A stretch of 36,302 nucleotides of DNA from a virus: the IMG/VR virus record IMGVR_UViG_3300008107_000362, positions 1 to 36,302 of that record; one strand, given 5' to 3'. Below the pieces are notes generated by a model. That model had not been told where the DNA came from, did no database searches, and saw nothing but the letters and a program-made list of their open reading frames with translations. Numbering within the stretch: the first letter of the stretch is position 1; each line of letters opens with the position of its first letter. Both the position numbers and the translations under genes were made by a program. Below, piece after piece: positions 1,141-28,162 of this stretch.

Positions 1141-1620
1141 TTATTTTTTAGGTATACCATATACTTTAATTGCTTCTGCTTCACTGATTCCATACATTCT
1201 CAAGTAGTCTTTTAGTATCTGTGTTCCGTTTGCCGATTCGAATATGAACGACAAATTATCGTAGGTTTCCGATGTCGACCATTGTTCTTGCTGTGACAAA
1301 AATTCTATAAGTCTTTTCGATATTTTACTATCCTCTTCTGATTTTGATTTTATATACTTTGCCCAAAACTTCTTTTTAGGTAGTAAATCAAGATACAAGT
1401 TGTAAACATCCTTAGGTCGCATACCGGTAAGTGTATATTGTTGTAAATAGTTTACCGTTTCGATATAATCAGGATCCATTGAAATGAAACGATTTATCAT
1501 ATACGGACTGAATTGCTTCTGGTCAACATCTGATAGATCGTTCCATTTCGTTTTTTTATCGAATAGACAGCTTAGTAGGTCGAATATTGTTTTACCTTTT
1601 ACAGTATTAGTTTTCGCCAA
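1141..1620 (-). CDS. sliding-clamp loader small subunit (T4 gp62-like)
   Basis: This 159-residue protein resembles T4 gp62, the subunit that joins four gp44 ATPases to form the clamp loader. The matching core is a PYMINRFISM segment (residues about 39-48) followed by a helical LLPKKKFWAKYIK segment (about 79-91). These correspond to the FMVNxALS and PxGKRxGKWAK parts of gp62. It is a little shorter than T4 gp62 (187). Position supports the call: it follows the gp44-like gene with only a small zinc-ribbon gene between them, overlapping the latter by 14 bases. Similarity is modest at residue level, and gene order contributes much of the confidence. Confidence 0.78.
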   Translation of the reverse strand: MAKTNTVKGKTIFDLLSCLFDKKTKWNDLSDVDQKQFSPYMINRFISMDPDYIETVNYLQQYTLTGMRPKDVYNLYLDLLPKKKFWAKYIKSKSEEDSKISKRLIEFLSQQEQWSTSETYDNLSFIFESANGTQILKDYLRMYGISEAEAIKVYGIPKK

Positions 1621-1876: not shown

Positions 1877-2812
1877 TTATTTTAAATGTGAGATTATACC
1901 AATAAACATAGCCATAATACTGATTTCTTTATCGACACACATTGCATCTTCACGCATTGTTTTTGCAATTTCAAGTATTATAGCCGCCTGAGTTCCTTCC
2001 TTTGCATACTGTTCGATATTATCGTACAGGAATCGATATAAATCATCGAACGTTCTGACTTTACTATCGGCAACAATCTGTCTGATATTTGTAAACATGT
2101 CCTTTGATGTAGATTTCGATTTCAACACATCTAAAATCTTATTCATGTAATCGACCTCCATCACAGATTGCTTTGTCAATTTCAATTCACCATTGACGAT
2201 TTGACGTTGTGTTGAACCGATGACTCTACGAATATCAGGATAACTGTTATTTATAATTATACCGACATCTTTCATATCGAACTGCACATTTTCCTGTTTC
2301 AATATATCGACAAGACGAATCGCTACATCTTTTTTAGATGGTGGATAGACTTCGAATACTGTACATCGACTCTGAATCGGATCGATTATTTTCTCAGGAT
2401 AGTTACATGTCAATATGAACCGTGACTTTCTTGAGTACTGCTCCATCATGTTTCTCAGTACTGCCTGTGCGTTTGGTGTTAGATAATCGGCCTCATCAAG
2501 AAACACAATTTTCCACTTCTTGAAACCTACACTCGATACAAAGGATTTTATCTTTGTACGTATAGTATCGACATTGTTTTCATCTGATGCATTGATATAT
2601 AACACATCGCAATCGATTGTGTTTGTGATTATCTTACCTAATGTTGTTTTACCGGTACCTGCTCTTGCATGTAATAACAAGTGAGGAATATCATCCTGAT
2701 CGATATAACGTTGGACAGTTTCTTTTAGGTTTTCATTGCCGATATAATCGGCTAATTTATGTGGACGATGCTTCTCTGTCCATAACGAGTGTGTAATTAC
2801 GTTTTCTTGCAT
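1877..2812 (-). CDS. sliding-clamp loader large subunit (T4 gp44-like AAA+ ATPase)
   Basis: This 311-residue RFC-type ATPase opens and loads the sliding clamp at primer ends. Visible motifs are Walker A (HARAGTGKT, 48-56), Walker B with a DEAD box (106-109), sensor 1 (ILTCNYPEKI, about 133-142) and the SRC motif with the trans-acting arginine finger (148-150). The N-terminal WTEKHRPHKLADYIGN segment is the usual RFC start. Length is close to T4 gp44 (319). It overlaps the upstream glycosyltransferase gene by 16 bases. A well-formed promoter lies inside that gene about 85 bases upstream (2896-2927), so the clamp-loader genes can be transcribed separately from the polymerase and clamp genes. 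Confidence 0.95.
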   Translation of the reverse strand: MQENVITHSLWTEKHRPHKLADYIGNENLKETVQRYIDQDDIPHLLLHARAGTGKTTLGKIITNTIDCDVLYINASDENNVDTIRTKIKSFVSSVGFKKWKIVFLDEADYLTPNAQAVLRNMMEQYSRKSRFILTCNYPEKIIDPIQSRCTVFEVYPPSKKDVAIRLVDILKQENVQFDMKDVGIIINNSYPDIRRVIGSTQRQIVNGELKLTKQSVMEVDYMNKILDVLKSKSTSKDMFTNIRQIVADSKVRTFDDLYRFLYDNIEQYAKEGTQAAIILEIAKTMREDAMCVDKEISIMAMFIGIISHLK

Positions 2813-5830: not shown

Positions 5831-8449
5831 CTAAAATTTAAAAAATTTATTTGACAGATCGTTGAGAACAATTTCACCCCATCCTAAACTTAACCAGAAA
5901 TTCGTTAGTTTTGTTTTCAACACGCTTTCAAATATCGCATCTCTGTCGATGTGTGCATGGACAAAGTCTCGTATATTTTTAGGATCTTCAAAACCTTTCA
6001 ATGCCATCGTGTCGAAATTATACTTGTTCTGTTTTAGATAGCCCCACAAGATTTTTTCACCGTCCTGTATATGAGGTATTGTGTAATTCTTATCTAAATC
6101 TAATAAATCGTTATAATTCATTGCGGCCTTTACGTGTACAGGAGTACCTTTTTGGCGTTTACCGAATATTCCAGTATGCCATTTTTCTACATCTTTTACA
6201 CCGGTCGGCAACATCAGTTCGTGTATTTCGACCGAATTCAATTTCGATTTGAATTTACGCACCTTTTCATTCATCGATTCTTTATCGGCGTCGTGTAATA
6301 TATCACGCAATATCTCATCCATGAATGATCTGAACTTTTCAGGAAAACTTGAACGCACTACATCTAACCCTTTCACATCCATATGGTCAACTCGATGGCC
6401 TTCCTTGTCGACGATCCATTGTGCATAACGTTTCTTTACACCTTCGAACTGTTTGGTTTTTGTACTAATCGCACCTACCCAAAATGCACGTTTCGCAATC
6501 AGCTCTTGCTTAATATCCCATCTATGAGTATCGACATTATGATACCGTTTTGCGTATGCTGAATACGAACCGTTAACAAATGTCTGCACATCATTTATTA
6601 TGTCTTTCGATTTCGCAACAATTTCATCATCAGTATAAGATTCCATTACGCCGTGGCGGTGAACAAACAACGGTTCAAGAGGTTCGAATATCGAATCCGT
6701 ATCGGTGTATATACAATACGACTTGTCCGTTGTTCCTAATTCTTTGTTGTAAAAGAAATCGGCTGCTCTCGTTGCCCACTGAATAACCGACTGCCCAGTT
6801 AACGTAACCGCTTCACCATTTGCCTTATCATAGAATCTAAATGACGGCAGTAACAATACACCATAAAACGAGTTAAGCAAGATTTTTGTAATTAACTGCT
6901 TACGATCGTAATATGCGGCAAGTTTCATGTCGCCATCGCGTTCTGCCTCTTTACGTAGATCCTTGAATCTTTTTCTATCGTCGAACCATACTTTTAGAAT
7001 TGCAGGTATTACGCCATCTTTCTCTAATGTGTATGTGACACCGTTCGATGCTACTGATAGATTGTTATCGATAAGATACTGTTTCAGTGCAGCAGATCCG
7101 ACAATTTCAGTCTCAGTCGTTTTTTTCACTTTAAAGAAATCGTCGAATTCGCCAGTGACTGTGTTGTCACGATAAAACTCTAATCGATACGTGCGTTCTG
7201 TACCCTTAACATATTCCTCTTCGTCCCAACCATGTATCTTACAATATTTTGTTTCCGGTGAAATATTCAAGGTAATCATATTCATCGGATACAGTGACGT
7301 TAGGTCCAAATCATACACCCATTTGTATAGTCCTGGTGTAGGTTGTTTAACAAAGGCTCCTTGTGCTTGGTCTTCACGTTGTGATTTATTTGCCGAAGCG
7401 ATTAATCCGTTACGCCTACAATACGTAAGGGCTGCGCCATCCAAATATGCGCTTGTGAACTGAATATCCTGGTGTGCGCAATGTCCTTTATGACATAGAC
7501 CTAACGCAGTCATAATCAGTTCTAATTTGTTTTCCAATGCTACAACCAATTCGACGTCTACAATATTATACTCGGCAAACTTCACAATATCGGTATTATA
7601 CAAATGGTCCAAATCGCCCTCGTATTCTACCTTACCACGCCCCAATTCGAACTTCGCAATTGTATTCAAACGGTAATTCGATTGTTCGATATATGTGAAT
7701 TTTTTATAGAGATTCAAATAGTCAAGCACCGTAACACCTGCAATCGATATCAGTTCACCACTGTTTGTGAATTTCTTTTTTACAAGTTTAGCATCAGGAC
7801 TTAACGAGTTCGCAACATCGTAACCGAATATTTTTACAATTCGATTATACAAATACGGCATATCGAAAAACTCTACGTTCCAACCAGTGATTATATTGTG
7901 ACCGACTTTTTGATATGCGTTCATGAACGACATCAACACATCACGTTCGTTTTTATATGTCTTGATTTTAGCAGTAACCGATGCACCATTTATATCGATC
8001 GTTGTCATGTATTCCTGTGCGTCTCTATGCGTATCTAACAATAAACATGTATAGTGAGGATCTCCGGTGGCGAAATAGGTTATCGCAGTGACTGTATTGT
8101 CTGCATCTTCTGGTGTACTGTACTTTTCTTCTTTGGCAACCTCTATGTCGATGTATAGTATTTTAGTATCTTTCGACACCTCATCTGAATCTGCATAACG
8201 ATCAATAAGGAATCTTGTTGCAGGTGATACGTTATGCTCGTATACAAGGCCCATTTTAATTGAATCATCTGACCAGTCTTTCACCTTTTTACATCGATAA
8301 CCATCGATAGTAATTGAATCACCATCACGGTCAATCATATACGCATAAGGTTCATAATCATGAACCGTGTAACCTACATCGTTGTGTTCACCATCGCCCC
8401 ACAAATGTATCTTCTCTTTCCGTTCATCATAATATATCGATCTATACAT
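5831..8449 (-). CDS. family B replicative DNA polymerase (T4 gp43-like)
   Basis: This is an 872-residue polymerase, close to T4 gp43 (898). The 3'-5' exonuclease motifs are present: DIE with Asp101/Glu103 (Exo I), NVEFFDMPYLYNRI at 191-204 (Exo II) and YNIVD with Asp298 (Exo III). Polymerase motifs are DLTSLYP (382-388, motif A), KILLNSFYG (522-530, motif B) and YTDTDSI (581-587, motif C). All catalytic aspartates are therefore in place. The C-terminal tail ends in an aromatic SNKFFKF segment, a plausible clamp-binding peptide like the gp43 tail. Its ATG overlaps the dpdA-like stop by one base (TAATG), so base modification and replication genes are translated from one message. Confidence 0.97.
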   Translation of the reverse strand: MYRSIYYDERKEKIHLWGDGEHNDVGYTVHDYEPYAYMIDRDGDSITIDGYRCKKVKDWSDDSIKMGLVYEHNVSPATRFLIDRYADSDEVSKDTKILYIDIEVAKEEKYSTPEDADNTVTAITYFATGDPHYTCLLLDTHRDAQEYMTTIDINGASVTAKIKTYKNERDVLMSFMNAYQKVGHNIITGWNVEFFDMPYLYNRIVKIFGYDVANSLSPDAKLVKKKFTNSGELISIAGVTVLDYLNLYKKFTYIEQSNYRLNTIAKFELGRGKVEYEGDLDHLYNTDIVKFAEYNIVDVELVVALENKLELIMTALGLCHKGHCAHQDIQFTSAYLDGAALTYCRRNGLIASANKSQREDQAQGAFVKQPTPGLYKWVYDLDLTSLYPMNMITLNISPETKYCKIHGWDEEEYVKGTERTYRLEFYRDNTVTGEFDDFFKVKKTTETEIVGSAALKQYLIDNNLSVASNGVTYTLEKDGVIPAILKVWFDDRKRFKDLRKEAERDGDMKLAAYYDRKQLITKILLNSFYGVLLLPSFRFYDKANGEAVTLTGQSVIQWATRAADFFYNKELGTTDKSYCIYTDTDSIFEPLEPLFVHRHGVMESYTDDEIVAKSKDIINDVQTFVNGSYSAYAKRYHNVDTHRWDIKQELIAKRAFWVGAISTKTKQFEGVKKRYAQWIVDKEGHRVDHMDVKGLDVVRSSFPEKFRSFMDEILRDILHDADKESMNEKVRKFKSKLNSVEIHELMLPTGVKDVEKWHTGIFGKRQKGTPVHVKAAMNYNDLLDLDKNYTIPHIQDGEKILWGYLKQNKYNFDTMALKGFEDPKNIRDFVHAHIDRDAIFESVLKTKLTNFWLSLGWGEIVLNDLSNKFFKF

Positions 8450-9651
8450 TATACGAAAAATGTGTGTTGACCGGCTGTCGTTGAACCAACAGGACGTTGT
8501 TGAGATAAATTAGGTAACATTCGTTGAAACTCTTTTCTTGGATTGTCAGATTTTATAATCTTATCGATCAGTTTAAGGTTTCTAAAAATATCTTTTGGTA
8601 AGATTTGTTCTTGGAAATAGTCATCACATCTAACCAAATTGTGTAGTAATTCCTGAGTATCTTTGAATACCGACAGATTGTAGAGTACAATTGCAGCATA
8701 TGCTTCTGACTTGAACTGACCGATAATATCGGTATCTTTATATTCCTCACGTAAGATCTCACCGATTTTATTATTCACTGGAGGAAATATACCACCTTGT
8801 GAATAGTCGATCTTACCACCTTTCAGTGTGATGTCTCTTGGAACGTGTATGACTTGCCAGTTCCATCCTCTTGGTATAAACATGCCACCGAATTTCGCTT
8901 GAATATTAGGTGTTGACGAGTCGGTCGATATCTGAATATGTGAACCGATATCGTTCATCGATTTTTGTAACTGTGTAAGATATACAAGTTCTTCAGTAGC
9001 AGTGACACCCAAAAAGTGAATCCACTCGTTGTTTTTATTTTCGTGTTCTTTACCTTCCATCAGTACAACTGTCGATGCTAAGATTTGATACAACGGTGCA
9101 GTACGTTGAGCAACACCTATGGCCCATCCATTAAATTCAAAACCCTTTACCTTATTATACCATGCAGAATATTTCTGTTCGGTCAAACCTTGAAGAACGT
9201 TTAGAAACTTGACCTTACCAGTTTGGTTCTGTTCGAAGTATTTGAAATTATTGTAACTAATATCCAAACATTCATCGAAGTGGCCCGACTTAGTTACTTT
9301 GGGTGGTATATCTAAATTTGCAGCTATTGTTGAATTGTCCTCCAACCATCTAAAAATTCTGTGACGTAATTCGTCTGTGTATTGCAGTTTACCCATGGCG
9401 ATCTGAAAACCACCAGAGTCACCGAATATCGTACTACTTTTAGGAAAACCGAATGCTTCGATATAGTTTTCAGTTTTATAACAGTGTCCGGCTGTTGTGA
9501 GATATGCAGGTATACGATATTCCTCAGGATACTCATCTGAATAGTATCTGAACGACAATTTACGGTTCGGCGTCCACTGATCTTTTTTCATTGCTGCCGC
9601 AATAGGTCCTGCACTACAAGCAGGAAAATAAAATAAACTACGATCTTGCAT
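8449..9651 (-). CDS. dpdA: DpdA-like DNA-guanine transglycosylase (7-deazaguanine insertion into DNA)
   Basis: This 400-residue protein is a distant tRNA-guanine transglycosylase relative. It has FGDSGGFQIAMG (76-87) with Asp78 in the TGT active-site loop, ANLDIPP (111-117), a NVLQG strand (151-155) followed by FNGWAIG (173-179), and ISTDSS (241-246), whose Asp244 is the likely nucleophile. The CxCxxC zinc site of bacterial tRNA TGTs is not seen, which fits DpdA proteins that act on DNA. DpdA swaps guanine in DNA for a 7-deazaguanine such as preQ0, protecting phage DNA from restriction. Neighbours agree: queC overlaps its start by 14 bases and the DNA polymerase start overlaps its stop. Which subfamily and which DNA sites are used cannot be told from sequence. 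Confidence 0.88.
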   Translation of the reverse strand: MQDRSLFYFPACSAGPIAAAMKKDQWTPNRKLSFRYYSDEYPEEYRIPAYLTTAGHCYKTENYIEAFGFPKSSTIFGDSGGFQIAMGKLQYTDELRHRIFRWLEDNSTIAANLDIPPKVTKSGHFDECLDISYNNFKYFEQNQTGKVKFLNVLQGLTEQKYSAWYNKVKGFEFNGWAIGVAQRTAPLYQILASTVVLMEGKEHENKNNEWIHFLGVTATEELVYLTQLQKSMNDIGSHIQISTDSSTPNIQAKFGGMFIPRGWNWQVIHVPRDITLKGGKIDYSQGGIFPPVNNKIGEILREEYKDTDIIGQFKSEAYAAIVLYNLSVFKDTQELLHNLVRCDDYFQEQILPKDIFRNLKLIDKIIKSDNPRKEFQRMLPNLSQQRPVGSTTAGQHTFFV

Positions 9652-10279
9652 TTATATATTCATTTAATGTTTTACAATTATTACAGTGTCCGCACTTTTC
9701 TGTGTCTGAATTGAAGCAATTCCACATATCATCTATGGTAAACCCGTATGCTTTCAATTCATCGTATACTTCCCATTTTGTCATCTTTGTATTGCGGTTT
9801 TCCATCAGTATAGGATCTGTTTTTATTTTACCATGCGTCAAATAGTTCAACATCGCATCCATGTGTAAATAGAATCCTAATGTCGAATCAGTAAACGACC
9901 AAGGCGTACCGTCAAGATTCAATGTTTTACTGCCTGATACAATTACAGATGCACCTAAACGTTCTGCAAGAGATGCTGCAATTGCACCTATTACTAAATT
10001 ACGTAAAGGTGTATACACATCTGAAACCTCACCGACATTATGCTCACCATTGACTGCACCTGTCGTAAACAGTCCACGTGATACAATCTCATGCAATGTT
10101 ATTCCCATACGATCGCAAAATGCACGGGCCTTTTTCCATTCTATATTAAGTGGCACTTGACCGTAGTTAAGAAACACGCCATGATATTCACAACCAGTTC
10201 CGTACTTGTCGATTGCTTTCAATGCAGCTAACATACTATCTGCACCTCCTGATATTTCGATCAATATTTTTTGTTGCAT
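9638..10279 (-). CDS. queC: 7-cyano-7-deazaguanine (preQ0) synthase QueC
   Basis: This 213-residue ATP-dependent enzyme converts 7-carboxy-7-deazaguanine plus ammonia to preQ0. It has the PP-loop SGGADS (10-15), a LNYGQ strand with a conserved tyrosine (38-42), and four C-terminal zinc ligands at Cys188, Cys196, Cys199 and Cys202 (CGHCNNC). Length is normal for the family. No glutamine-amidotransferase domain is fused, so this is ordinary QueC. The gene overlaps the aminotransferase gene upstream by 19 bases and dpdA downstream by 14. The phage therefore makes at least preQ0; whether preQ0 is the final base in DNA is open. Confidence 0.93.
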   Translation of the reverse strand: MQQKILIEISGGADSMLAALKAIDKYGTGCEYHGVFLNYGQVPLNIEWKKARAFCDRMGITLHEIVSRGLFTTGAVNGEHNVGEVSDVYTPLRNLVIGAIAASLAERLGASVIVSGSKTLNLDGTPWSFTDSTLGFYLHMDAMLNYLTHGKIKTDPILMENRNTKMTKWEVYDELKAYGFTIDDMWNCFNSDTEKCGHCNNCKTLNEYINARS

Positions 10280-11247
10280 GCTTTTTGTATTATCTTGTTT
10301 AGATTTTCGTATTTTTCAACTGCATGATTAAACATACCGATCTGAAATTTATCTTTCATATACACTGAATTATAGTATATGTTAATATCATGTTTCTGAA
10401 TTTCGTCGATTACATTCCGCATCACTCGTTTGTCGTTAAATGCAAATGTCAATACAGGTGCAACTCGTTCACCTAAAAATTGATATGCACCGTTATCTTT
10501 TATCGCTGCACAATTTTCTTCGATCTGTTCCTTTGTACAGAAATTGTTCGCATCGATACTCAAAATTTGAGGTAACATTGTAGTGTGAGGTGTTTCTCTA
10601 TTACGTTTCGAATCGATGTATCTTCTAAAATTCAAATAGAATCCAGTCGAACCATCTATCAGTTTTTCAATTTCTTTACGATACGCCAATATTCCAAGTG
10701 CTGGTAAACCACGTAATATTTTCGCAGTACTTGAACAGATTACCGATGCCGGTGTAGGATCGTAAAATCCTAAGGCAGATACCATGTCGACGATACTTAT
10801 AACACCGATCCTATTACATTCTTCAATCAGTGCATCAATCTTATTTTTCTTCGATACACTCGTTTCAAAACAAACACAAATGAATACTTCGAATTTACCG
10901 GTCTCCAATTTACGCATCGCATCGGTTTCATTTGTAGCGACAGTTATATTTGCATTGCGACTTACACGTGTACACATATCAACTATCCTTTCTGAAAATG
11001 TACCGTTTGAAAGTATTAATACATTTCTAAAAGCCGTTAATCCGTTAACCGCAGTTTCAATTGCCGACGTACCAGACCCTTGTGTAAGAATCACATCGTA
11101 GTCCGCATCATCCATACTGAAATACGAATCACGAATTAGATCGCATTTGTCCTCATATAGATTATGAAACTGTTTCGATCTGTGATGGAAGTCGATTTCG
11201 ATATACCACCTTGAATTCACTGGACCAGGACTGAATAGATCTTTCAT
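10261..11247 (-). CDS. class V PLP-dependent aminotransferase in the deazaguanine operon
   Basis: This 328-residue protein is a fold-type I PLP enzyme of the AGT/PhnW group. It has FSPGPV near the N terminus (5-10), a HRSKQFHNLYE segment (22-32), QGSGTSAIETAVNGL (56-70), FETS (127-130), SIVDMVSALG with the pyridine-binding Asp154, and SSTAKILRG with Lys176 as the PLP lysine. In these enzymes an FRIG motif near the C terminus carries the Arg that binds the substrate alpha-carboxylate. Here the segment reads FQIG (301-304), placing Gln302 at that position. It sits between folE (one-base TAATG overlap) and queC (19-base overlap), so it is almost certainly part of the deazaguanine pathway. A role in making an amino-bearing 7-deazaguanine is inference; amino acid metabolism is the alternative. 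Confidence 0.85.
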   Translation of the reverse strand: MKDLFSPGPVNSRWYIEIDFHHRSKQFHNLYEDKCDLIRDSYFSMDDADYDVILTQGSGTSAIETAVNGLTAFRNVLILSNGTFSERIVDMCTRVSRNANITVATNETDAMRKLETGKFEVFICVCFETSVSKKNKIDALIEECNRIGVISIVDMVSALGFYDPTPASVICSSTAKILRGLPALGILAYRKEIEKLIDGSTGFYLNFRRYIDSKRNRETPHTTMLPQILSIDANNFCTKEQIEENCAAIKDNGAYQFLGERVAPVLTFAFNDKRVMRNVIDEIQKHDINIYYNSVYMKDKFQIGMFNHAVEKYENLNKIIQKACNKKY

Positions 11248-11879
11248 TACTTCAACCTATTTATAAATGAATAAAACTCATCTCGTACTTCATGTGTGTT
11301 GAGAAACGCACCGCTTAGTTTACTCGTCATCATTGTAGAATCGTGACGTACGCCTCTAATACACGCGCACATATGATTCGCTTCAATGACAACGGCAACC
11401 CCTTTATTTCCACCACAAACCGAATCGATATAGTTATGTATTTGCATTGTAAGATTCTCTTGTACCTGTGGTCTTCGTGCAAACCATTCAACAATACGAT
11501 TCAATTTCGATAACCCAATTACCTTATCACCTGGTAAATATGCGACATGCGCTCTACCTACAAACGGTAAGTGATGATGTGAACAGATCGATTTGACATC
11601 GATATTACCTTGAAATACCATGCCATCATAACAATCTACATTATCGAATGCTGTAATATTCGGTGCATTCGTATAACACCCTTCAGCCAAATCGTTGATA
11701 AATGATTTTGCTACACGTCTTGGTGTATCTGAACTATTCGGGTCATTTCGCCAATCGATACGCAATGTGTCCATAAATACCTCGTATGCCTTTGCAGCAT
11801 CGTCGATCATCGATTTACGTTCATCCTCAGTGAACGGAACATTGCTATTTGCGTATTTTAACATTTTGTCATTAAACAT
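11247..11879 (-). CDS. folE: GTP cyclohydrolase I (FolE)
   Basis: This 210-residue protein catalyses the first step from GTP to dihydroneopterin triphosphate, shared by folate and 7-deazaguanine synthesis. Zinc ligands are seen as Cys99 and His102 in [12 protein letters not shown] and Cys171 in [12 protein letters not shown]. The conserved [19 protein letters not shown] segment (123-141) and a DTPRRVAKS segment (51-59) are present. Length is close to E. coli FolE (222). The context (aminotransferase, queC, dpdA directly downstream) points to preQ0 supply rather than folate. The start overlaps the end of the denV-like gene by 8 bases. Confidence 0.95.
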
Positions 11880-12345
11880 AGTGCAATTTTGATTTTATAA
11901 CGTTACGTGAAAAATTGTCGATATTTGGAATGGCTACACGACTATACCGATAAAACCCTTGACCAGGTTTACCGTTGGTTCGTGTGTGCAATCTTGATGC
12001 AATTCGTAGACGTATATCTACTGAATCTTTATACGATGGTTTCCAGTTATTCAGATACTTTTTAGGTGCCTCTGTAATCACATTGTCGATTTGAGTTGTC
12101 GCATTAAAACCTCTGCGTTTCATCTCAGTGTTGACTGAATCGAGTCTATCTTTAAGATACAATAACTTGTCTTTGAAAAAGTTCATGTGACCTTTACCTA
12201 ATGAAAATTGTTTAGGTATTTCTGAAACTATACGATACTCGTTCTTACGAAAACTGCCTGTTATCATTGTGATCTCTACAGATTCTGCAATTAAGTGCTG
12301 GTCTGATAGAAACATAGGATTGACACCAACATTCACTCTTGCCAT
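11872..12345 (-). CDS. denV: pyrimidine-dimer DNA glycosylase / endonuclease V (DenV-like)
   Basis: This 157-residue protein aligns with T4 endonuclease V from the first residue. MARVNV corresponds to [15 protein letters not shown] to [22 protein letters not shown] to LGAGHVTFFYDKL, and KRRGFN to LKRGFN. The enzyme excises UV-induced cyclobutane pyrimidine dimers. The catalytic glutamate (Glu23 in T4) corresponds to Glu24 here. The nucleophile is the alpha-amino group of residue 2 after Met removal; T4 has Thr2 and this protein Ala2, which still allows Met removal. It is the first gene after a strong promoter (12365-12396) with a leader of only about 13 bases, heading the folE-aminotransferase-queC-dpdA-polymerase run. 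Confidence 0.88.
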
Positions 12346-12364
12346 ATTATAAATTTTGTATGCA

Positions 12365-12396
12365 CAAACATACGAAAAATATTTGAGAATTCCAAA
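12365..12396 (-). promoter_or_regulatory. promoter for the DenV-FolE-aminotransferase-QueC-DpdA-polymerase operon
   Basis: TTTG (12393-12396) and TATGTTTG (12365-12372) on the minus strand are 20 bases apart, a perfect TTTG-N20-TAnnTTTG. The -33 box sits in ATTTGGAATTCTCA, shared with two other promoters here. The -33 box abuts the stop codon of the MazG-like gene. A short inverted repeat GTATG-N6-CATAC covers the -7 box (12358-12373) and could be an operator. Confidence 0.8.
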
Positions 12397-12819
12397 TTAT
12401 CCTTCAAGCATTTCACGTTCAGCATCTAAATTTCTATTGATTGCGTTATCGGTTGTGAATTTCTCAGGATACCTTGCACGTAACTTCGCAATATTTTTAG
12501 CCAATACATGTGTCAGATCGATCTTATTCGCATTGCAAAACTCGGAAATGTACCATAAAAGATCTCCCAATTCTTCTTCGACATTGAACCAGTCGATCGG
12601 TTTGTCATATGCTAAATTCTTTTTAAATTGATCGGTAAGTTCGCCTACTTCGGTTGCCATTCCCATCACCATGTGCAGTGATGTGAGGTCGGAGTAAGGT
12701 TTATTCAATGGTGCGTTTGTACGACCTGTAAGACTCGTATACTCGCGTAATGACATGTTTCTACTAATTTCCAACGACATCAGAATCTGTTTTATCTGTT
12801 TTAAAATAATCTCCAACAT
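12397..12819 (-). CDS. MazG-like nucleotide pyrophosphohydrolase
   Basis: This is an all-alpha NTP pyrophosphohydrolase with the EVGE (57-60) and ELGD (83-86) metal-binding pair, the ExxE-n-ExxD signature. The WFNVEEELGDLLWYISEF stretch is typical. MazG-type enzymes hydrolyse (d)NTPs to monophosphates and often occur in phages, where they may adjust nucleotide pools. The frame opens at 12819, giving 140 residues and a 56-base overlap with the membrane-protein gene. Internal Met14 (12780) or Met22 (12756) would remove most or all of the overlap, and MSLREY at Met22 looks like a natural start, so the N terminus is uncertain. Confidence 0.85.
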   Translation of the reverse strand: MLEIILKQIKQILMSLEISRNMSLREYTSLTGRTNAPLNKPYSDLTSLHMVMGMATEVGELTDQFKKNLAYDKPIDWFNVEEELGDLLWYISEFCNANKIDLTHVLAKNIAKLRARYPEKFTTDNAINRNLDAEREMLEG

Positions 12820-13030
12820 ACATACCGTATAAATTCAGTACGATAATTACAAAACTAAGAACCATGTGACTCCAGTTCATGATGAATACATCGTATACGA
12901 CCCATCCTAAGTCTCCGACTATCCATGTAACAAATGCAGTTTTTCTCTTATCGACTGAATTGAAATAGTATCCGCATAGGATTAGAACAGTCGATACCCA
13001 TCCTAACGAATCTAAAAAAGTGTCTATCAT
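12764..13030 (-). CDS. small membrane protein with about three transmembrane segments
   Basis: This 88-residue protein has hydrophobic stretches at about 6-22 (LDSLGWVSTVLILCGYY), 33-52 and 55-72, giving two or three helices and a short charged tail. The GW-x5-LxLxGYY, W-x-VGDLGWVVYD and LNLYGMY patterns recall one half of PnuC-like or other small sugar/vitamin-transporter repeats. I cannot assign it firmly. It follows the 130-residue gene by one base and lies in the queE operon. A role in uptake of a nucleobase or vitamin is only a guess. Confidence 0.6.
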   Translation of the reverse strand: MIDTFLDSLGWVSTVLILCGYYFNSVDKRKTAFVTWIVGDLGWVVYDVFIMNWSHMVLSFVIIVLNLYGMYVGDYFKTDKTDSDVVGN

Positions 13031-13031
13031 C

Positions 13032-13424
13032 TTATTTGTATTTACCGTTTGTTAACATTAATGTCTCATCAGGGAAATCGACCGATACGCGGCACTGGTC
13101 TAATCCGTACATGAGTTCATGGGCAAGTTCTAATGCTTGCGATTTAAGTTTGACTCGATCTGATTGGAATCTTGGGTAGTGTATAAATCCGATAATTGCA
13201 CCGTCTTCGGCACCATTTGTGTAAACATACCGGGTCGGCGTTACAGTTACACACTGACCTACACGATCTACCCATTTTTGAGCGATCTTTTCCGCATCTT
13301 GTATTGGGCGAATAACGCCGGTCTGTTTACATTTCAAACCGACGTATATGTTAATCGTATAGCCCGTTACTTTTGTTATTGGTATCATTTTCATATTATA
13401 CGCATCTTTCAGTGTCAAAGGCAA
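13032..13424 (-). CDS. unknown protein overlapping queE
   Basis: This 130-residue protein is of unrecognised family. It has an N-terminal beta hairpin (GYTINIYVGLKC), a helix (DAEKIAQKWVDRVG), a second strand pair (QCVTVTPTRYVYTNG, AIIGFIHYP), a helix (LKSQALELAHELMYGL) and a final strand (CRVSVDFPDETLML). It overlaps queE by 29 bases, an unusually long overlap here. QueD is the missing pathway enzyme and also small, but this protein has no HxH zinc motif and no recognisable QueD active-site residues. I therefore do not call it QueD. An upstream Met or the internal Met11 could be the true start. Confidence 0.6.
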   Translation of the reverse strand: MPLTLKDAYNMKMIPITKVTGYTINIYVGLKCKQTGVIRPIQDAEKIAQKWVDRVGQCVTVTPTRYVYTNGAEDGAIIGFIHYPRFQSDRVKLKSQALELAHELMYGLDQCRVSVDFPDETLMLTNGKYK

Positions 13425-14184
13425 TTATGTGAGGTCTGCCTGTAAAATTATAACCAGTGTCTCTACAAAAATTCATAACATCACCATAACTTAAAAACAG
13501 TGCCGCTCTGTTGTCGCCAGGAGGCATAATATAAGTTTTCGATTTAGGTGCGCCTAACTCGTCTAAAAACGTTTGAACTTCAGACCAAATTTCAGGATCT
13601 TGAATCGGATTCACAACAGGCTTCAAATGATAATCTGTATGCGTTTCCATGTTGTATTTAATCGCATCGAAATTCAATCTGAATTTATTATGCTGGTCGA
13701 TCATCTTTTGGTCTACCGTTGCACCCTGAGGAGTTTTAATACCTAATTTAGGTACTGAATTGCTGAATTTAGGTGATATTGAAACTAAACCAATAGGCTT
13801 GTCTGTGAAATCTATCCGATGAGAACCCTCAGTTTCAATTGTCATTACAATACCACGTTCATGACAAAAGTTATTCAGTGTATTTACAATTGCAGGATGC
13901 ATTGTCGGTGCGCCTCCTGTCAACATCATTTCTGAAATGTGAGGATTCGCATCATACATTTTGATAATATCATTGATAGTGTATTTACCCTTTTCAGGAT
14001 GAATCGATGTATACCAAGAATCGCACCAACCACCTTGTTCACCGAACCAACATCGATGTGTGCAACCTGTTGTACGTATCACAATTGTCGGCATACCTGC
14101 TCTTGAGCCTTCACCCTGTACAGCAGTGTATACCTCTACAATTGGTAGCGTCTTGTCGAAATCTTCTATTGATTTGTTACGCAT
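13396..14184 (-). CDS. queE: 7-carboxy-7-deazaguanine synthase QueE (radical SAM)
   Basis: This 262-residue radical SAM enzyme contracts carboxytetrahydropterin to 7-carboxy-7-deazaguanine. The N terminus shows the QueE pattern VEVYTAVQGEGSRAGMPT (residues 16-33) and IRTTGC. The Fe-S cysteines are Cys41, Cys45 and Cys54, so the spacing is CX3CX8C rather than the radical SAM standard CX3CX2C. The third cysteine lies in GGWCDSWYT, matching the WCDT segment of QueE. MLTGGAPTMHP (87-97) matches the TGGEP-type SAM-binding motif, with Ala in place of Glu. The gene is separated from folE and queC by the MazG and DenV genes but clearly belongs to the same pathway. Confidence 0.92.
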   Translation of the reverse strand: MRNKSIEDFDKTLPIVEVYTAVQGEGSRAGMPTIVIRTTGCTHRCWFGEQGGWCDSWYTSIHPEKGKYTINDIIKMYDANPHISEMMLTGGAPTMHPAIVNTLNNFCHERGIVMTIETEGSHRIDFTDKPIGLVSISPKFSNSVPKLGIKTPQGATVDQKMIDQHNKFRLNFDAIKYNMETHTDYHLKPVVNPIQDPEIWSEVQTFLDELGAPKSKTYIMPPGDNRAALFLSYGDVMNFCRDTGYNFTGRPHIIAFDTERCV

Positions 14185-15401: not shown

Positions 15402-15433
15402 CAAATATAGATAAACTTTTTGACATTTCCAAA
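15402..15433 (-). promoter_or_regulatory. promoter downstream of nrdA, heading the QueE operon
   Basis: TTTG (15430-15433) and TATATTTG (15402-15409) on the minus strand have a 20-base spacer, a perfect match to the Bacteroidetes sigma-A pattern. The -33 box lies in ATATTTGGAAATGTCA. It sits in the 75-base gap between the nrdA stop and the ATG at 15374. Confidence 0.8.
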
Positions 15434-18576: not shown

Positions 18577-19962
18577 CTAAAATAAATTACTTGCTTTCGT
18601 ATCTGACGTTAAATTATTTAACTGATTAAACCTTTGCTGCAAACGTCGTCTATCGTATTCTGTGTCGGTGCTCATTGTATTTGATACCTCTTTTCCCTGT
18701 GTGCTTGTTTCTGAATGTACGTTAATAACACCACGTGATGTGTCCATGTATACTGGGAATGTAACACCATCTATACCGAAACGGTTTTTGATTATGTGTA
18801 GTCTTGCCGTATTCGACAATTTATCCTGAGCCTTTCTTGACAACGACATAACAAAGTCTGCCGGAAATATTTTTGCGTATGCACCGGCTGCTTTGTCCGC
18901 TTCGATAATATCGGTATTTAAGCCTTCACGATTCGACTGTGATACTGTCCAAATAGGAACTTTGTTTTCACCTGCAAATCCTCTAAGTTCTTCATACAAT
19001 GCTTCGAGTATCTCATGCTTTGCAAGTTTACTATTTCCAAACTTTAATAGATCCGCATAATCGATTATCACTAAATCTGGTTCTGTTCCTAACATTCGTA
19101 ACTTAGTAAGGTGTGAACGCAATCCCATCAGTGATACCGATTTTGTAGGATACCATTTTATAATCAGCTGTCCTGCGATTTGTTTCAGTGCAGTTTTTAC
19201 CTTATCGACATGAAGACTTATTTTATCTAAACTAATACCTGACAATATACAATCGTATCGCCAACCGGTATAGTTTTCGCTTAGTTCCAATGAATAGTGT
19301 ACAACGGTCTTGCCGTTACGCATCGCGTTAGCACCTATTGCTGCTAATAACCAGGATTTACCTGCCCCGGAAGGTGCAATAGCAACACCCAATTCACCAG
19401 GTGCTAAACCACCTTTCATTATCTCATCGACAACAGGCCACCCAGTTGATAACGGTGAACGTGAATCCTCCATGTATCGTTGTTCGATCATCTCTAAATA
19501 GTCCATACCGATGTCAGTATCCATACCAACTTTCATTGCAGCATCGACTAATTGTTTTATTCGATCATAATCACCATTTTTTAAATGTTCAACAGATTCC
19601 AATATCGCAGACTTCAATTCCTGGTTTTTACAGAAATCGAGTGTTGTAGATTTTATGAAATCTAAATCGGTTTCGTTCACACATTTGACTGCATCTTTCA
19701 GTGTTGCAACAATTTCTTGTTTTAACAACTCGTCATCGACTTTATCGATAAAGACTTTCAATACATCTAATGTCGGTATCTTCTTGTTTTTCTTGAAATA
19801 TTCTAATGCACGGTCAACGATAAATTTCACCGACTCGGAATCGAAATATTCCAATTTTATAAGATCGTATATCTGACTGACGAATGCAGTATCCGTCATT
19901 ATAGATGCGATTATTTTAGTCTGAAATTTGTAGCCGTAATTAGCTAATTTTTGCTCCCGCAT
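18577..19962 (-). CDS. replicative DNA helicase, DnaB/T4 gp41-like
   Basis: This 461-residue RecA-fold hexameric helicase unwinds DNA at the fork. The N-terminal helical domain begins NYGYKFQTKIIASIMTD, like gp41 homologues of T4-type phages. Walker A is APSGAGKS (196-203) and Walker B is LVIIDYADLL (about 292-301). A TVSQSN segment (about 334-339) and a late basic IIKNRFG segment follow. Length matches gp41 (475). No primase (gp61-like) gene is visible in this window. It overlaps the FEN nuclease gene by 23 bases, so the two are coupled. Confidence 0.93.
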   Translation of the reverse strand: MREQKLANYGYKFQTKIIASIMTDTAFVSQIYDLIKLEYFDSESVKFIVDRALEYFKKNKKIPTLDVLKVFIDKVDDELLKQEIVATLKDAVKCVNETDLDFIKSTTLDFCKNQELKSAILESVEHLKNGDYDRIKQLVDAAMKVGMDTDIGMDYLEMIEQRYMEDSRSPLSTGWPVVDEIMKGGLAPGELGVAIAPSGAGKSWLLAAIGANAMRNGKTVVHYSLELSENYTGWRYDCILSGISLDKISLHVDKVKTALKQIAGQLIIKWYPTKSVSLMGLRSHLTKLRMLGTEPDLVIIDYADLLKFGNSKLAKHEILEALYEELRGFAGENKVPIWTVSQSNREGLNTDIIEADKAAGAYAKIFPADFVMSLSRKAQDKLSNTARLHIIKNRFGIDGVTFPVYMDTSRGVINVHSETSTQGKEVSNTMSTDTEYDRRRLQQRFNQLNNLTSDTKASNLF

Positions 19963-20995
19963 ATATGTCTAAACGTTTAAATGTATCTCTTAACCATGAA
20001 TCCACGTCTTTAATATTCGCATATAGTTTGTCTTCTAAAAACAATCTCTTAAACGTCTTAGTATTCATTTTGTTCACTGGCGAATCCATTAATTCACCTA
20101 TACGCAATTTGTTAGTCGCTGCGATATCGACATCGTTTAACTGCATCAGTTTATAATTACGTTCGATCAGATCTCTATTCTCACATAATGCATTGTATAT
20201 TTTTACACGTGTACCTTCGGCGATCTGTTTAGATGCGTTTTCGAGTAATTGGTCTACAGTACAAGGTTCTGATACCAGTGATGGGAACCGTTTTAAAAGT
20301 GTAGGTAAACCGATACCGGCAACGCCATTTATATTATCAGATGCATCTCCTGACAACATTCTGTAAAGTAAGTAATTTTTTGGTAGAATTCCAAATTCTT
20401 CTTGAATTTTTTCTTCTGTATATAATTTTTTCTTTACGGGACTCCAAACCTTTGTACGTTCGTTCACTAACTGAATAAAATCTCTATCTGTTGATACAAT
20501 AGTTATTTTATTGTCGGCCGTTTCATAATACTGCTTTGTTATGTAAGCGATAACGTCATCGGCTTCGATGTTATCGATCGATATTACTGTTATTGGTAGT
20601 GTGTCGAAATAATCGACGATGCGTCTAAACTGTGCTTTCATCGATGCCTGTTCATCAACTAAATCGGCAAACTCGTCGAATCGATTCATTTTCGTTTTAT
20701 TTTTACGATTCGATTTATAGTCAGGATATAGTTTTCTGCGGCGCTGAGATCCGCCAGTCCCATCGAAAACGACAACGCATCGAGTTGCTTGAAACTGGCG
20801 GATATTCGCACCTACTGATTTTAAAAAACCGATAACTCCACCGACATGCATACCGTCATCGTTCAATGCAGGCACGGCACTGAATACTCGGATGAATGTA
20901 TTCAATCCATCTATAATCAATACATGGTCATCTTTACCTCTTGGCGTACCTAATTCATCTCCGAATTTAGTCCACATTTCTTGGAGTCTATTCAT
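19940..20995 (-). CDS. 5'-3' exonuclease, FEN/T4 RNase H type
   Basis: This 351-residue structure-specific nuclease would remove RNA primers and flaps. The metal-binding acids are visible: Asp29 (LIIDG), Asp78 (VVFDG), Glu144/Asp146/Asp147 (IEADD), Asp170/Asp172 (STDRD) and Asp217/Asp220 (SGDASDN). A helix-hairpin-helix INGVAGIGLPT follows. RRRKLYPDYKSNRK (85-98) is the DNA-binding YK-rich segment typical of PolI-type 5' nucleases. T4 RNase H is 305 residues. The gene lies between a small unknown gene and the helicase, in the lagging-strand part of the operon. Confidence 0.93.
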   Translation of the reverse strand: MNRLQEMWTKFGDELGTPRGKDDHVLIIDGLNTFIRVFSAVPALNDDGMHVGGVIGFLKSVGANIRQFQATRCVVVFDGTGGSQRRRKLYPDYKSNRKNKTKMNRFDEFADLVDEQASMKAQFRRIVDYFDTLPITVISIDNIEADDVIAYITKQYYETADNKITIVSTDRDFIQLVNERTKVWSPVKKKLYTEEKIQEEFGILPKNYLLYRMLSGDASDNINGVAGIGLPTLLKRFPSLVSEPCTVDQLLENASKQIAEGTRVKIYNALCENRDLIERNYKLMQLNDVDIAATNKLRIGELMDSPVNKMNTKTFKRLFLEDKLYANIKDVDSWLRDTFKRLDIYAGAKIS

Positions 20996-21354: not shown

Positions 21355-21386
21355 CAAATGTAATAATCTTTTGTGAGAATTCCAAA
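21355..21386 (-). promoter_or_regulatory. promoter between uvsX and the nuclease-helicase operon
   Basis: TTTG (21383-21386) and TACATTTG (21355-21362) on the minus strand have a 20-base spacer, a perfect TTTG-N20-TAnnTTTG. Bases after the -33 box are GGAATTCTCA, identical to the promoters at 12365 and 23511. It lies in the 70-base gap after the uvsX stop. Confidence 0.8.
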
Positions 21387-21400
21387 TAATTAGCAATTAA

Positions 21401-22633
21401 TTAATCGTTTTCCCCTAAGAAATCTTCCTGTACTACAATATCATCTACTCCGAAATCACGATTCACTTTATACGTCATCACGAAACGATCGCATATCATA
21501 TCGTAGATCCATTCACGCAATTCGGTATTCGCATCCATCCATTGCCCAAAATCTTTACTTCTAAATTTCAATTCACCGGCAAGTTTCTTTAATTCACCTG
21601 TTTCAGGATTAACAACATCGCCATCGAATGTTCGTAATACCGGTTTACCGTTCTCGTCGCGCTCCTTATTACTCTCGTATGATAGTTTAATCGTCCAGTA
21701 ACCACCAGAATTCGCCAATTTGAATGTCTTCATGGTGTTTAACCAACTGCCATAATTGTCAATACCAGATTCGAAATATATGTCGTAATCAACAGCTTTC
21801 AATGGTGGACCTAATCGATTCTTTTGAACTATCGCATGGGTTTTTATTCCCACTACCTGTTCGACACCATCTGAGTTTTTTGCTTTAATTTGTCCTAACG
21901 ACTTCAATCGAATCCTTACCGAAGAGTGAAACGCGACGGCTTTACCGCCCGATGTCGAATACGGATCTCCAAATGAAACGCCCATACGTATCCGTAACTG
22001 ATTCGTCAATATCAAACATACATTCTGTCTTGCTAACATGTTTGTTATCTTACGCATTGCTTTCGACAACACGATCGCCTTTTCAGTTGCATACCCATCT
22101 TTACCATGCTCTGCGTTCATCTCATTCTTAGTTGTTGCACCCATAATCGAGTCGACAACGATCGTGACAAGAACGTCTTTATTCGTCTTACGTACCTTTA
22201 CAATTGTCGCTTCAATTGTATCGAAGATGTCTTCCAATGATTCTAAAGGAACGTATACCATCTTCTCAATGTCAACACCAATTGCTTGTAGATACTCTCT
22301 ACTGATAGCGGCTTCTGTGTCGATGTATATCGCCAGTCCTCCTTGTTTCTGTGTACTTTTCAGTGCATACGCAGCTAACAAAGATTTACCAGAAGCCTCC
22401 ATACCTGTGATCTCAATGATTCTACCTGCCGGAAAACCACCATGCGGACGATTTGCAATTGCCAAATCTAAAATATCGCATCCTGTTGGTACCCATTTGT
22501 TAACATCACTGATCTTGTCATCCGATAAGAAGTAGGCAGCCTTGTCGGTTGAATGATTGAATTTCGTATTTAGTGTCGAAACCAAATCACTTGCAAGACT
22601 GTCTACTGTCTCTACATTAATTTTACTCGCCAT
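21401..22633 (-). CDS. uvsX: UvsX/RecA-like recombinase
   Basis: This 410-residue strand-exchange protein forms filaments on single-stranded DNA. Walker A is GMEASGKS (77-84), the Walker B aspartate is Asp161 (TIVVDSIM), and a TNQLRIRMG segment with the L2-like YSTSGGKAVAFHSS follows. Length is close to T4 UvsX (391). It sits 11 bases after the ssDNA-binding protein gene, its functional partner, and is transcribed with it from the promoter at 23511-23542. Confidence 0.95.
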   Translation of the reverse strand: MASKINVETVDSLASDLVSTLNTKFNHSTDKAAYFLSDDKISDVNKWVPTGCDILDLAIANRPHGGFPAGRIIEITGMEASGKSLLAAYALKSTQKQGGLAIYIDTEAAISREYLQAIGVDIEKMVYVPLESLEDIFDTIEATIVKVRKTNKDVLVTIVVDSIMGATTKNEMNAEHGKDGYATEKAIVLSKAMRKITNMLARQNVCLILTNQLRIRMGVSFGDPYSTSGGKAVAFHSSVRIRLKSLGQIKAKNSDGVEQVVGIKTHAIVQKNRLGPPLKAVDYDIYFESGIDNYGSWLNTMKTFKLANSGGYWTIKLSYESNKERDENGKPVLRTFDGDVVNPETGELKKLAGELKFRSKDFGQWMDANTELREWIYDMICDRFVMTYKVNRDFGVDDIVVQEDFLGEND

Positions 22634-22644
22634 ATTGTTTTCTG

Positions 22645-23475
22645 TTATCCGAACATTTCATCGAATGCAGCATCAATATCGTTAGTCACAGCAGCTGCTG
22701 GTGCTGACTTTTTGGCTGACGGTACATTTACACGAATCGGCCCATTCAAAGGATTGAGTGGATCTGCTAAGAAATCACTTGTCGGCAAGTCTTCATCATC
22801 ATCCGTAGCAGGTGCAGCATCCTCTTCAGCTGTGTTGTTGATAAACTTGTCTAATAGATCCGCCAGTTCTTCATATGTAGGAGGTTCCCATATGTCTTTG
22901 ACCGTAGGCATTTCTTTTAGAAGTTTAATCACTTCAGGATCTGTTGTTGCAGGTGACGTGTTTCTCTTAACACGGAAACTTGTTTTCGGATAAGATCCGT
23001 CTGCTGCTTTTTCGTATTCGACTGTAATATCGGTACCGTTCTTCAGATCTGTGATGTTACCATAATCAGGGTCATCGATCGTCTTCAGAAGTTCCTCGTA
23101 TACAGTTTTACCGAAACCCCAAAATTTTACACCCTCGTGTTCCTGACCTCTAACCAAAATAGGTACATAAGTACGCATCTTCGGTTCGATCTTCCGTGCT
23201 AACAACCAATCCTCACGTTCACCAGTGCCTTTCAGTTTGTCAGCCAATTCCTGAACTGGGTCAGGTTGATTGAAATTTTGCGGCGAAATGATAGTTTTCT
23301 TAGCCAAATCGTAGTAAAACAGTAGTTCCAAAAAAGGCCAATCTTTGTTATGTACATATGGTACAATACGAATTACCTGTGAACCAGGTTGCGGCTTCCA
23401 AATTTGTTTTGATGCCGACGGCTTGTTTTGATTTGTGAGAGATTCAAGCCTCTCTCTAATTTTGTTTAAGTCCAT
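22645..23475 (-). CDS. single-stranded DNA-binding protein (T4 gp32-like) without cysteines
   Basis: This 276-residue protein fits gp32 in layout. It has a basic N terminus (MDLNKIRERLESL), an OB-like core with a LELLFYYDLAKKTIISPQNF segment (residues about 49-68), and a long acidic linker. The tail is strongly acidic and ends DIDAAFDEMFG, the partner-binding C terminus. T4 gp32 uses one His and three Cys to bind zinc; this protein has no cysteine at all, so the zinc site is lost. Its genome neighbours are UvsX downstream and a dedicated promoter upstream. Homology is inferred from the core pattern, acidic tail and gene order. Confidence 0.88.
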   Translation of the reverse strand: MDLNKIRERLESLTNQNKPSASKQIWKPQPGSQVIRIVPYVHNKDWPFLELLFYYDLAKKTIISPQNFNQPDPVQELADKLKGTGEREDWLLARKIEPKMRTYVPILVRGQEHEGVKFWGFGKTVYEELLKTIDDPDYGNITDLKNGTDITVEYEKAADGSYPKTSFRVKRNTSPATTDPEVIKLLKEMPTVKDIWEPPTYEELADLLDKFINNTAEEDAAPATDDDEDLPTSDFLADPLNPLNGPIRVNVPSAKKSAPAAAVTNDIDAAFDEMFG

Positions 23476-23510: not shown

Positions 23511-23542
23511 CAAATATAAGTGATTTTTCTGAGAATTCCAAA
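23511..23542 (-). promoter_or_regulatory. promoter for the SSB-UvsX operon
   Basis: TTTG (23539-23542) and TATATTTG (23511-23518) on the minus strand are separated by 20 bases. The -33 box is in ATTATTTGGAATTCTCA. It lies in the 85-base gap between the Ntn hydrolase stop and the SSB start, with a leader of about 30 bases. It is one of the cleanest matches in the window. Confidence 0.82.
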
Positions 23543-26797: not shown

Positions 26798-28111
26798 CTA
26801 CCTTTTAGGTTTTATCATATTATCGTATCCTATTCCTACCTTTAAACTTGCACGCATTCCGTAATTATTCAGAATCATTAAAATATCATCTATAAAATTT
26901 TTACCGTCGCGTTTATCATACAAAAATAAGAAAGAATCGTATGTATATAGTACAATTTTACTATACTTTTCATATAAATATCTGAGAATTTTGTTTAACA
27001 TTAACGAATTCACATCTGTTTCATAGCCCTGCAATACATAGTTGAACAGTTTACTTGCGTTCATATTCTCATGATTTTTCGCATAGATTTTACGTTTAGT
27101 CAACGGCGTTTTTATATAACCGATATCGTCGAACTCGGACCATAAACGATTACGGTACTCTTGCACCATTTTAAAAAATGGAATATCACTGTATTCATTG
27201 TATATAGTACCGTACAACATTCTGAACGTTATTGTTTTCGACTCGGCGTATTGTTCATCTGTTATTACCGGTGTTTTAAAATATTGTCTGCCGAAATATT
27301 CGTGCAAGTTACCAGCAGGTAATTCGTAACCGATAAGTTTCGCAACAAGACGTACATGATGACTATCGTAATCGAATTCGATTAGCATCTGTGAATTGTT
27401 TTCAACTTCGATAATCGAACGTACACCAGTGCCTTTATCTAATGCAGCGAAATTTATACCACCGAAACGGTTACTTGGCCTGCCTGTTGCAGTATACGGA
27501 TAGTATTCGGTATAGAGTCGACTTTTATTGATATTATAGAATTGTTTCAGTTTATCGGAATTTATCGGTAAACCTGAGTTTTCGATTCGGTAAAAGTTTT
27601 CGATTACGTTTTCGTTATAGAAATTCAAAGTGTCATCGAATTCGATTCTGAAAATGCACTGTTCGAAATTAGTTCGTATAGTCCGACAGTATTCGATTAG
27701 ATTGACTATCGGTATAATGTCGTTTACATTTCGGAGATCTGAATACCATCTATGATATGCAGTTATATCTTGTGAATATTCGATTTCGATCGGTGTATTT
27801 TCTTGTAACCAATAACAAAGATCTGCATCATAACATTTAATGCCCTTTGACCATAATATCGATTTTTTATAGCAGATTGTCGATTCCGGTAAACTGATCT
27901 CTGTTAACCAATTTTCGCCGTTTTTTACAAGATCACTGTGACTACATCCGATTACAAATTCGTCACCGGTGCTGTAATTATAGAAATACACGAAACTGAT
28001 ACGATTTTCACAACGGTGTCGCGTATGGTCAGATAATACCGGTACAACGATAAGCATATCGTTGAGCATGTCAGACCAATTGACATCTGTATATGTTTGT
28101 ATGTATTTCAA
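26798..28111 (-). CDS. divergent family A DNA polymerase-like protein
   Basis: This 437-residue protein matches the PolI-type palm and fingers in order. It has TGR (209-211), motif A LIEFDYDSHHVRL with Asp247, motif B SKTITFRMLYG with Lys292, Phe296 and Tyr300, NYVLQG with Asn357/Gln361, and motif C LYTYDSF with Asp392. The two catalytic aspartates are kept. By position, E. coli Glu710 (steric gate) is His252, Arg754 is Tyr, Arg841 is Ser, and HDE of motif C is YDS. The first ~170 residues could be a degenerate 3'-5' exonuclease domain without its DxE. The start is TTG at 28111 behind a strong promoter (28131-28162), with a leader of about 13 bases. This is a second polymerase besides the family B replicase; its role is unknown. 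Confidence 0.8.
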   Translation of the reverse strand: MKYIQTYTDVNWSDMLNDMLIVVPVLSDHTRHRCENRISFVYFYNYSTGDEFVIGCSHSDLVKNGENWLTEISLPESTICYKKSILWSKGIKCYDADLCYWLQENTPIEIEYSQDITAYHRWYSDLRNVNDIIPIVNLIEYCRTIRTNFEQCIFRIEFDDTLNFYNENVIENFYRIENSGLPINSDKLKQFYNINKSRLYTEYYPYTATGRPSNRFGGINFAALDKGTGVRSIIEVENNSQMLIEFDYDSHHVRLVAKLIGYELPAGNLHEYFGRQYFKTPVITDEQYAESKTITFRMLYGTIYNEYSDIPFFKMVQEYRNRLWSEFDDIGYIKTPLTKRKIYAKNHENMNASKLFNYVLQGYETDVNSLMLNKILRYLYEKYSKIVLYTYDSFLFLYDKRDGKNFIDDILMILNNYGMRASLKVGIGYDNMIKPKR

Positions 28112-28119
28112 GTAATTGT

Positions 28120-28151
28120 GGAAATAAAATCAAATATACGACTTTATTTCC
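28120..28151 (-). repeat. 9-bp inverted repeat bracketing the -7 box of the PolA-like promoter
   Basis: GGAAATAAA (28120-28128) and TTTATTTCC (28143-28151) form a perfect 9-bp inverted repeat with a 14-base centre. That centre contains the whole -7 box (28131-28138). No U-tract follows, so it is not a standard terminator. It looks like a repressor operator or a hairpin that controls the PolA-like gene. The outer arm overlaps the last codons of the tail gene upstream. Confidence 0.6.
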
Positions 28152-28162
28152 AAAATTCCAAA
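28131..28162 (-). promoter_or_regulatory. promoter for the family A polymerase-like gene
   Basis: TTTG (28159-28162) and TATATTTG (28131-28138) on the minus strand have a 20-base spacer. The -33 box lies in ATTATTTGGAATT inside the last codons of the upstream tail gene. The predicted start near 28124 gives a leader of about 13 bases before the TTG start codon. The promoter separates the tail genes from the accessory and replication block. Confidence 0.8.

Follow-up and report, generated by a model that had tools for sequence, protein, structure and literature searches.

A divergent family A DNA polymerase-like protein of the divPolA1 family, with a conserved atypical active site, encoded beside a family B replicase in a virus contig

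Why does a virus with a family B replicase also carry a second, family A DNA polymerase-like gene whose active site departs from that of Escherichia coli DNA polymerase I? The question was raised by the window, that is, the whole stretch of 36,302 nucleotides analyzed here (IMG/VR record IMGVR_UViG_3300008107_000362), whose features are collected in Table 1. A first-pass annotation made from the letters alone had proposed this pair of polymerases, and the proposal was borne out on both sides: the family B polymerase was identified, and the product of the gene in question scores 38.2 bits against a cut-off of 34.3 bits with Pfam DNA_pol_A (PF00476; E 1.1e-9). The same profile is matched at E<=0.01 by 59 of 73 relatives. 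The protein also matches PHROG_17 (DNA polymerase), and the family profile matches canonical phage PolA at E 2.1e-18. An AlphaFold2 model based on 73 aligned relatives has a Klenow-like fold (pLDDT 94.9, pTM 0.91). Its best PDB matches are of DNA polymerase I type; the polymerase domain of M. smegmatis Pol1 is matched at E 1.4e-18 and Klenow 1kln with a TMq of 0.74. The top matches are all DNA polymerases, the named viral ones being phage DNA polymerases. As had been anticipated, the two catalytic aspartates lie in the expected motif A and C positions as judged by secondary structure, Asp247 closing the strand of motif A (241-248) and Asp392 occupying the turn that joins the two strands of the motif C hairpin (385-390/393-399). 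Profile and model together indicate that the protein belongs to the family A DNA polymerase fold. Chance similarity to Pol I was ruled out by the profile, the structure and the family alignment. A T7-type single-subunit RNA polymerase was also rejected, since all of the best structure matches are DNA polymerases and the equivalents of Klenow Phe762 and Gln849 are retained. The TTG start codon is backed by the nearest relative (L112, 63% identical), which has an ATG at the equivalent aligned position.

Table 1. Features of the window and of the divPolA1 protein that it encodes.
Feature	Position	Strand	Remarks
divPolA1 gene	26798..28111	minus	437 aa, TTG start, family A polymerase-like
N-terminal exonuclease-like domain	about residues 1-125		limits estimated from model secondary structure
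Short thumb	about residues 135-212		limits estimated from model secondary structure
Palm and fingers	about residues 213-437		limits estimated from model secondary structure
Motif A, residues 245-252 EFDYDSHH	27356..27379	minus	Asp247, Asp249, His252
Motif B (O-helix), residues 288-301	27209..27250	minus	Tyr288 for Arg754; Lys292, Phe296, Tyr300 retained
Motif C, residues 390-394 TYDSF	26930..26944	minus	Asp392; Ser393 for Glu883
Promoter-like motif TTTGGAATTTTGG-N11-TATATTTG	28131..28162	minus	about 20 nt upstream of TTG start
All copies of the promoter-like motif	2896-2927, 12365-12396, 15402-15433, 21355-21386, 23511-23542, 28131-28162	minus	pattern match
Upstream neighbour, 191 aa	28144..28719	minus	end of baseplate block; in 136/155 loci
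p149 partner, 130 aa	24363..24755	minus	no known family; motif HRKKxTNTLYTINALN; co-conserved with divPolA1
gp32-like SSB	22645..23475	minus	PF08804 E 5.9e-12
RecA-type recombinase	21401..22633	minus	PF00154 E 7.5e-51
5'-3' exonuclease (Pol I N-terminal type)	19940..20995	minus	PF02739 E 1.2e-35
DnaB-like helicase	18577..19962	minus	PF03796 E 2.6e-16
Family B replicase with exonuclease domain	5831..8449	minus	PF00136 E 1.9e-31, PF03104 E 9.6e-23
T4-type clamp-loader large subunit	1877..2812	minus	AAA E 4.5e-16; Gp44_lid E 5.7e-4, under its cut-off
Clamp-loader A subunit	1141..1620	minus	PF16790 E 9.5e-7

Is this a new family? It is not: the protein is divPolA1, which was named in 2024 from 14 phages and includes gene 1 of Flavobacterium phage immuto (Virol J 2024, 21:200, PMC11348598). 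According to the main text of that paper, divPolA1 accompanies a regular polymerase, which may belong to family A, B or C, retains the palm residues, has an inactive exonuclease and a truncated thumb, and is followed by replication genes; whether it or the regular polymerase is the main replicase is left open there. The window protein is homologous to the immuto protein over its full length (tblastn E 4e-54, 84% cover; about 28-32% identity). It likewise comes on top of a regular polymerase, with the palm catalytic residues kept, the exonuclease inactive, the thumb short and replication genes downstream, and the assignment was made on these grounds. It is a new, deeply branching member. In the literature searched, no later use of the name was found. 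The main text of the 2024 paper, whose figures include motif alignments, nowhere mentions the steric gate, ribonucleotides, translesion synthesis or fidelity, and it does not discuss phosphate-contact residues, a p149 partner or a promoter-like motif. The present analysis adds the size of the family, the invariance of its residues, the exchange of the replicase, the p149 partner and the promoter-like motif.

A scan of IMG/VR with the immuto protein as query gave 312 relatives, and a scan with the family alignment gave at least 588 loci. In the annotated phage collection, divPolA1 was found in Flavobacterium immuto (four records), Microcystis Mel-JY01 and an uncultured 484-kb phage; a seventh matching record, MT837804, has an ordinary PolA and was set aside. 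Among 84,980 cellular genomes there was one match, in a metagenome bin (L191), which I take to be a phage contig.

The family profile was aligned to Klenow with HMMER (E 3.9e-8), and each position was counted in 92 aligned members. The first-pass annotation had listed the PolI palm and finger motifs, both aspartates and four departures from the norm, and all of these could be placed on the alignment. The replaced residues are Glu710 (His252), Arg754 (Tyr288), Arg841 (Ser353), His881 (Tyr391) and Glu883 (Ser393), so that HDE becomes YDS at 391-393. The retained ones are Asp705 (Asp247), Lys758 (Lys292), Phe762 (Phe296), Tyr766 (Tyr300), Asn845 (Asn357), Gln849 (Gln361) and Asp882 (Asp392), and His734 and Arg668 correspond to His270 and Arg211. 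Thus the window protein lacks the steric-gate Glu, the O-helix Arg and the HDE motif C, which are typical of, although not strictly defining for, family A. Asp247, Asp392, His252, Lys292, Phe296, Arg211, Gln361, Tyr391 and Glu364 are found in 92/92 members, and Tyr288, Tyr300 and Asn357 in 91/92. Position 249, a Ser in Klenow (Ser707), has a carboxylate in every member (90 Asp and 2 Glu). Position 393 is Ser or Ala, giving a YD(S/A) motif C in 92/92; no member has a Glu at 393 or an Arg at 353. Within the immuto clade, dN/dS is 0.068. Judging from this invariance and the low dN/dS, the odd substitutions are a fixed signature of the family, and decay into a pseudogene was ruled out on the same evidence. 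Two active-site carboxylates, the equivalents of Glu710 and Glu883, have been lost and one, at 249, has been gained.

At the N-terminal side, no carboxylate is conserved across the 92 aligned sequences where exo I and exo II were placed by eye. The exonuclease domain was judged inactive because these catalytic carboxylates are lost, in agreement with PMC11348598. The thumb is short, only about 80 residues separating the N-terminal domain from the palm in the model. To sum the comparison with E. coli Klenow, the fold, the catalytic aspartates, the O-helix Lys, Phe and Tyr and the Arg668, Asn845 and Gln849 equivalents are shared, whereas the overall identity is about 15% and the two differ in the active-site replacements listed above, the inactive exonuclease and the truncated thumb. 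A 5'-3' nuclease domain such as that of E. coli DNA polymerase I is absent from divPolA1; a separate gene for one lies nearby.

Which polymerase copies the genome? Besides the short divPolA1, immuto has a second family A polymerase, a 777-aa replicase (MW353176.1 37854-40187) whose exonuclease motif DTETTG is intact. A separate full-size PolA without PolB was found in immuto and six contigs over 100 kb, while PolB without full-size PolA was found in the window, Mel-JY01, LR756508 and 8 more contigs, and all of these have divPolA1; neither replicase is seen in some contigs, which are incomplete. In the divPolA1 tree, the phages with a PolA replicase are all on one side of one branch. Only this grouping was used, the deep branches (Mel-JY01, LR756508) being long and uncertain. 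These patterns show that the replicase, of family A or B, has been exchanged between phages with divPolA1 retained. Since the replicase changes while divPolA1 stays, divPolA1 is most likely accessory. In phages of this kind the replicase cannot be told from the presence of a PolA gene, a caveat for studies that deduce lifestyle or replication from PolA markers.

The gene had been described as lying after the tail genes, outside the replication block. The latter point is wrong in view of the gene order and a promoter-like motif shared with the replication genes. In the 155 loci compared, the baseplate genes are followed by the 191-aa protein, divPolA1, often a variable gene, p149, SSB, RecA, exonuclease and DnaB; in most relatives, as in the window, immuto and Mel-JY01, divPolA1 has the baseplate genes on one side and the SSB-RecA-exonuclease-DnaB genes on the other. 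It therefore heads this replication block. The counts fall from 137 of the 155 loci for p149 to 110 for the gp32-like SSB, 92 for RecA, 72 for the 5'-3' exonuclease and 58 for DnaB, which I read as the effect of short contigs. Shared ancestry within a single phage lineage, and not function, could account for the common order. The p149 gene was found in exactly those six phage records that have divPolA1. As this co-occurrence lies within one lineage, it is suggestive of a partnership at most. The p149 model is confident (pLDDT 95.9), and none of its PDB matches falls below E 0.1; Pfam and PHROG gave no match for the window p149 and scattered weak ones among its relatives.

The window was searched for TTTGGAATTCTCA-N11-TANATTTG with up to 3 mismatches. 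Six copies were found, each on the coding strand, whereas 100 shuffled controls gave none. They precede divPolA1, SSB, the gene ahead of the exonuclease and DnaB, and the clamp loader, as well as two further genes; the tail region of the window has none. Bacteroidota promoters have a -33 TTTG and a -7 TAnnTTTG element, a pattern that the window motif fits. The nearest relative (L112) retains the motif at the equivalent place, and the earlier proposal that the gene has a promoter of its own is supported by this pattern match. The motif is upstream of divPolA1 in only 3 of 148 other loci, one of them a poor match, and is thus specific to close relatives. The motif, a pattern match rather than a mapped transcript, ties divPolA1 to the replication genes and not to the tail genes. 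The six copies may mark a phage regulon that covers genes of replication and of metabolism.

What, then, might divPolA1 do? I lean toward an accessory DNA polymerase that is active, does not proofread and serves in gap filling or recombination, a reading drawn from sequence comparison and the model that seems rather probable. Such an enzyme would be template-directed and, with the exonuclease carboxylates lost and the thumb short, non-proofreading and weakly processive. The protein keeps the two metal-binding aspartates and the Pol I minor-groove and base-stacking contacts, and the residues that surround the sugar and triphosphate of an incoming nucleotide form a different but fixed set. Presumably it would be expressed together with the phage SSB, the RecA-type recombinase, the 5'-3' exonuclease and the helicase, and it might elongate short primers or the ends of D-loops during gap filling and recombination-linked repair, while genome copying would be left to a separate replicase, of family B in the window. 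That divPolA1 is itself the main replicase, with the regular polymerase as an auxiliary, is most improbable: its neighbourhood is indeed the more conserved replication block, but it has no proofreading domain and a short thumb, and the window PolB retains an exonuclease domain, its gene sharing a region with those of the clamp loader. The idea of a primer-making enzyme, which the first-pass annotation had raised, deserves just as little credence. In its favor, an altered steric gate could admit ribonucleotides. Both complete isolate genomes have, by existing annotation, a DnaG or DnaG-like primase (immuto35A_179; Mel-JY01 WWT39519), and a primase was rejected on this ground and because the fold is that of Pol I and not TOPRIM or AEP.

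A catalytically dead fold, serving as a DNA-binding or scaffold protein in a recombination complex, is unlikely, although somewhat better placed than these two. By Klenow standards, His for Glu710, Tyr for Arg754 and the lost Glu883 could cripple dNTP binding, the Arg841 equivalent is gone too, and the tight co-conservation of the small p149 suggests a complex. Against this, dead polymerases normally lose their metal carboxylates, and here both catalytic aspartates and the Lys758, Phe762 and Tyr766 equivalents hardly vary, if at all, among 92 divergent sequences, with the low dN/dS pointing the same way; the earlier suggestion of a non-catalytic protein lost ground accordingly. Altered substrate choice is a more serious though still doubtful candidate, in which His252 and Tyr288 would make divPolA1 a translesion or ribonucleotide-tolerant enzyme acting with ribonucleotides, modified nucleotides or damaged templates. 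The unusual pocket, with its His and Tyr kept almost without exception and its shifted carboxylates, may change sugar or lesion tolerance, and the lack of proofreading and the adjoining RecA and SSB genes fit this. On the other hand, the retained Phe296 and Gln361, together with the TGR/TSR arginine typical of DNA polymerases, argue for DNA over RNA synthesis. A tie to deazaguanine modification is weak and was rejected: going by annotation, immuto has the pathway, whereas Mel-JY01 carries divPolA1 with no annotated deazaguanine gene. Slightly more tentative is a combined version in which the relocated carboxylate and the His/Tyr nucleotide pocket give a new substrate preference (e.g. ribonucleotides, lesions or recombination intermediates) in an obligate pair with p149. 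In any case, at least 588 virus contigs carry a polymerase whose active site would count as damaged by textbook rules, with the odd residues invariant. If divPolA1 is an active accessory polymerase, as I favor, the Pol I fold would hold another workable solution for nucleotide selection and a possible source of unusual-substrate enzymes.

According to the main text of PMC11348598, divPolA2 of barbaviruses and Vibrio phages is likewise divergent, family A-like and additional to a regular polymerase, and its gene context is variable. No similarity between divPolA1 and the single divPolA2 sequence used was detectable (hhalign E 0.44). Unlike divPolA1, divPolA2 has by eye a Glu in a motif A-like stretch and FDE in a motif C-like stretch. 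The window resembles the T4-type replisome in its gp32-like SSB, family B polymerase, clamp loader, RecA-type recombinase and 5'-3' exonuclease. T4 is not known to have a family A polymerase, unlike the window.

Several minor observations were made. QueC, FolE, QueE, QueD and DpdA-like deazaguanine DNA-modification genes were recognized by eye at 8449-14184 (minus) of the window, a pathway that is annotated in immuto; the DpdA-like ORF has no Pfam match. Amid these genes, the ORF at 11247-10261 (minus) is class V aminotransferase-like (PF00266 E 0.005, below cut-off). The proteins encoded between divPolA1 and p149 have differing bodies, but several carry a common N-terminal tag, which might be a sorting signal. 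The window ORFs at 26794-25688 and 25686-24775 have the tag W/F..L.KGYA.PPYT.EE in common, and a PD-(D/E)XK-like stretch was noted by eye in the 303-aa protein there. Just after the polymerase in L147, L157, L164, L165, L169, L174 and L181, several proteins share another tag, xxxEWAYRVxDGxPDxxNxxHxxxL.
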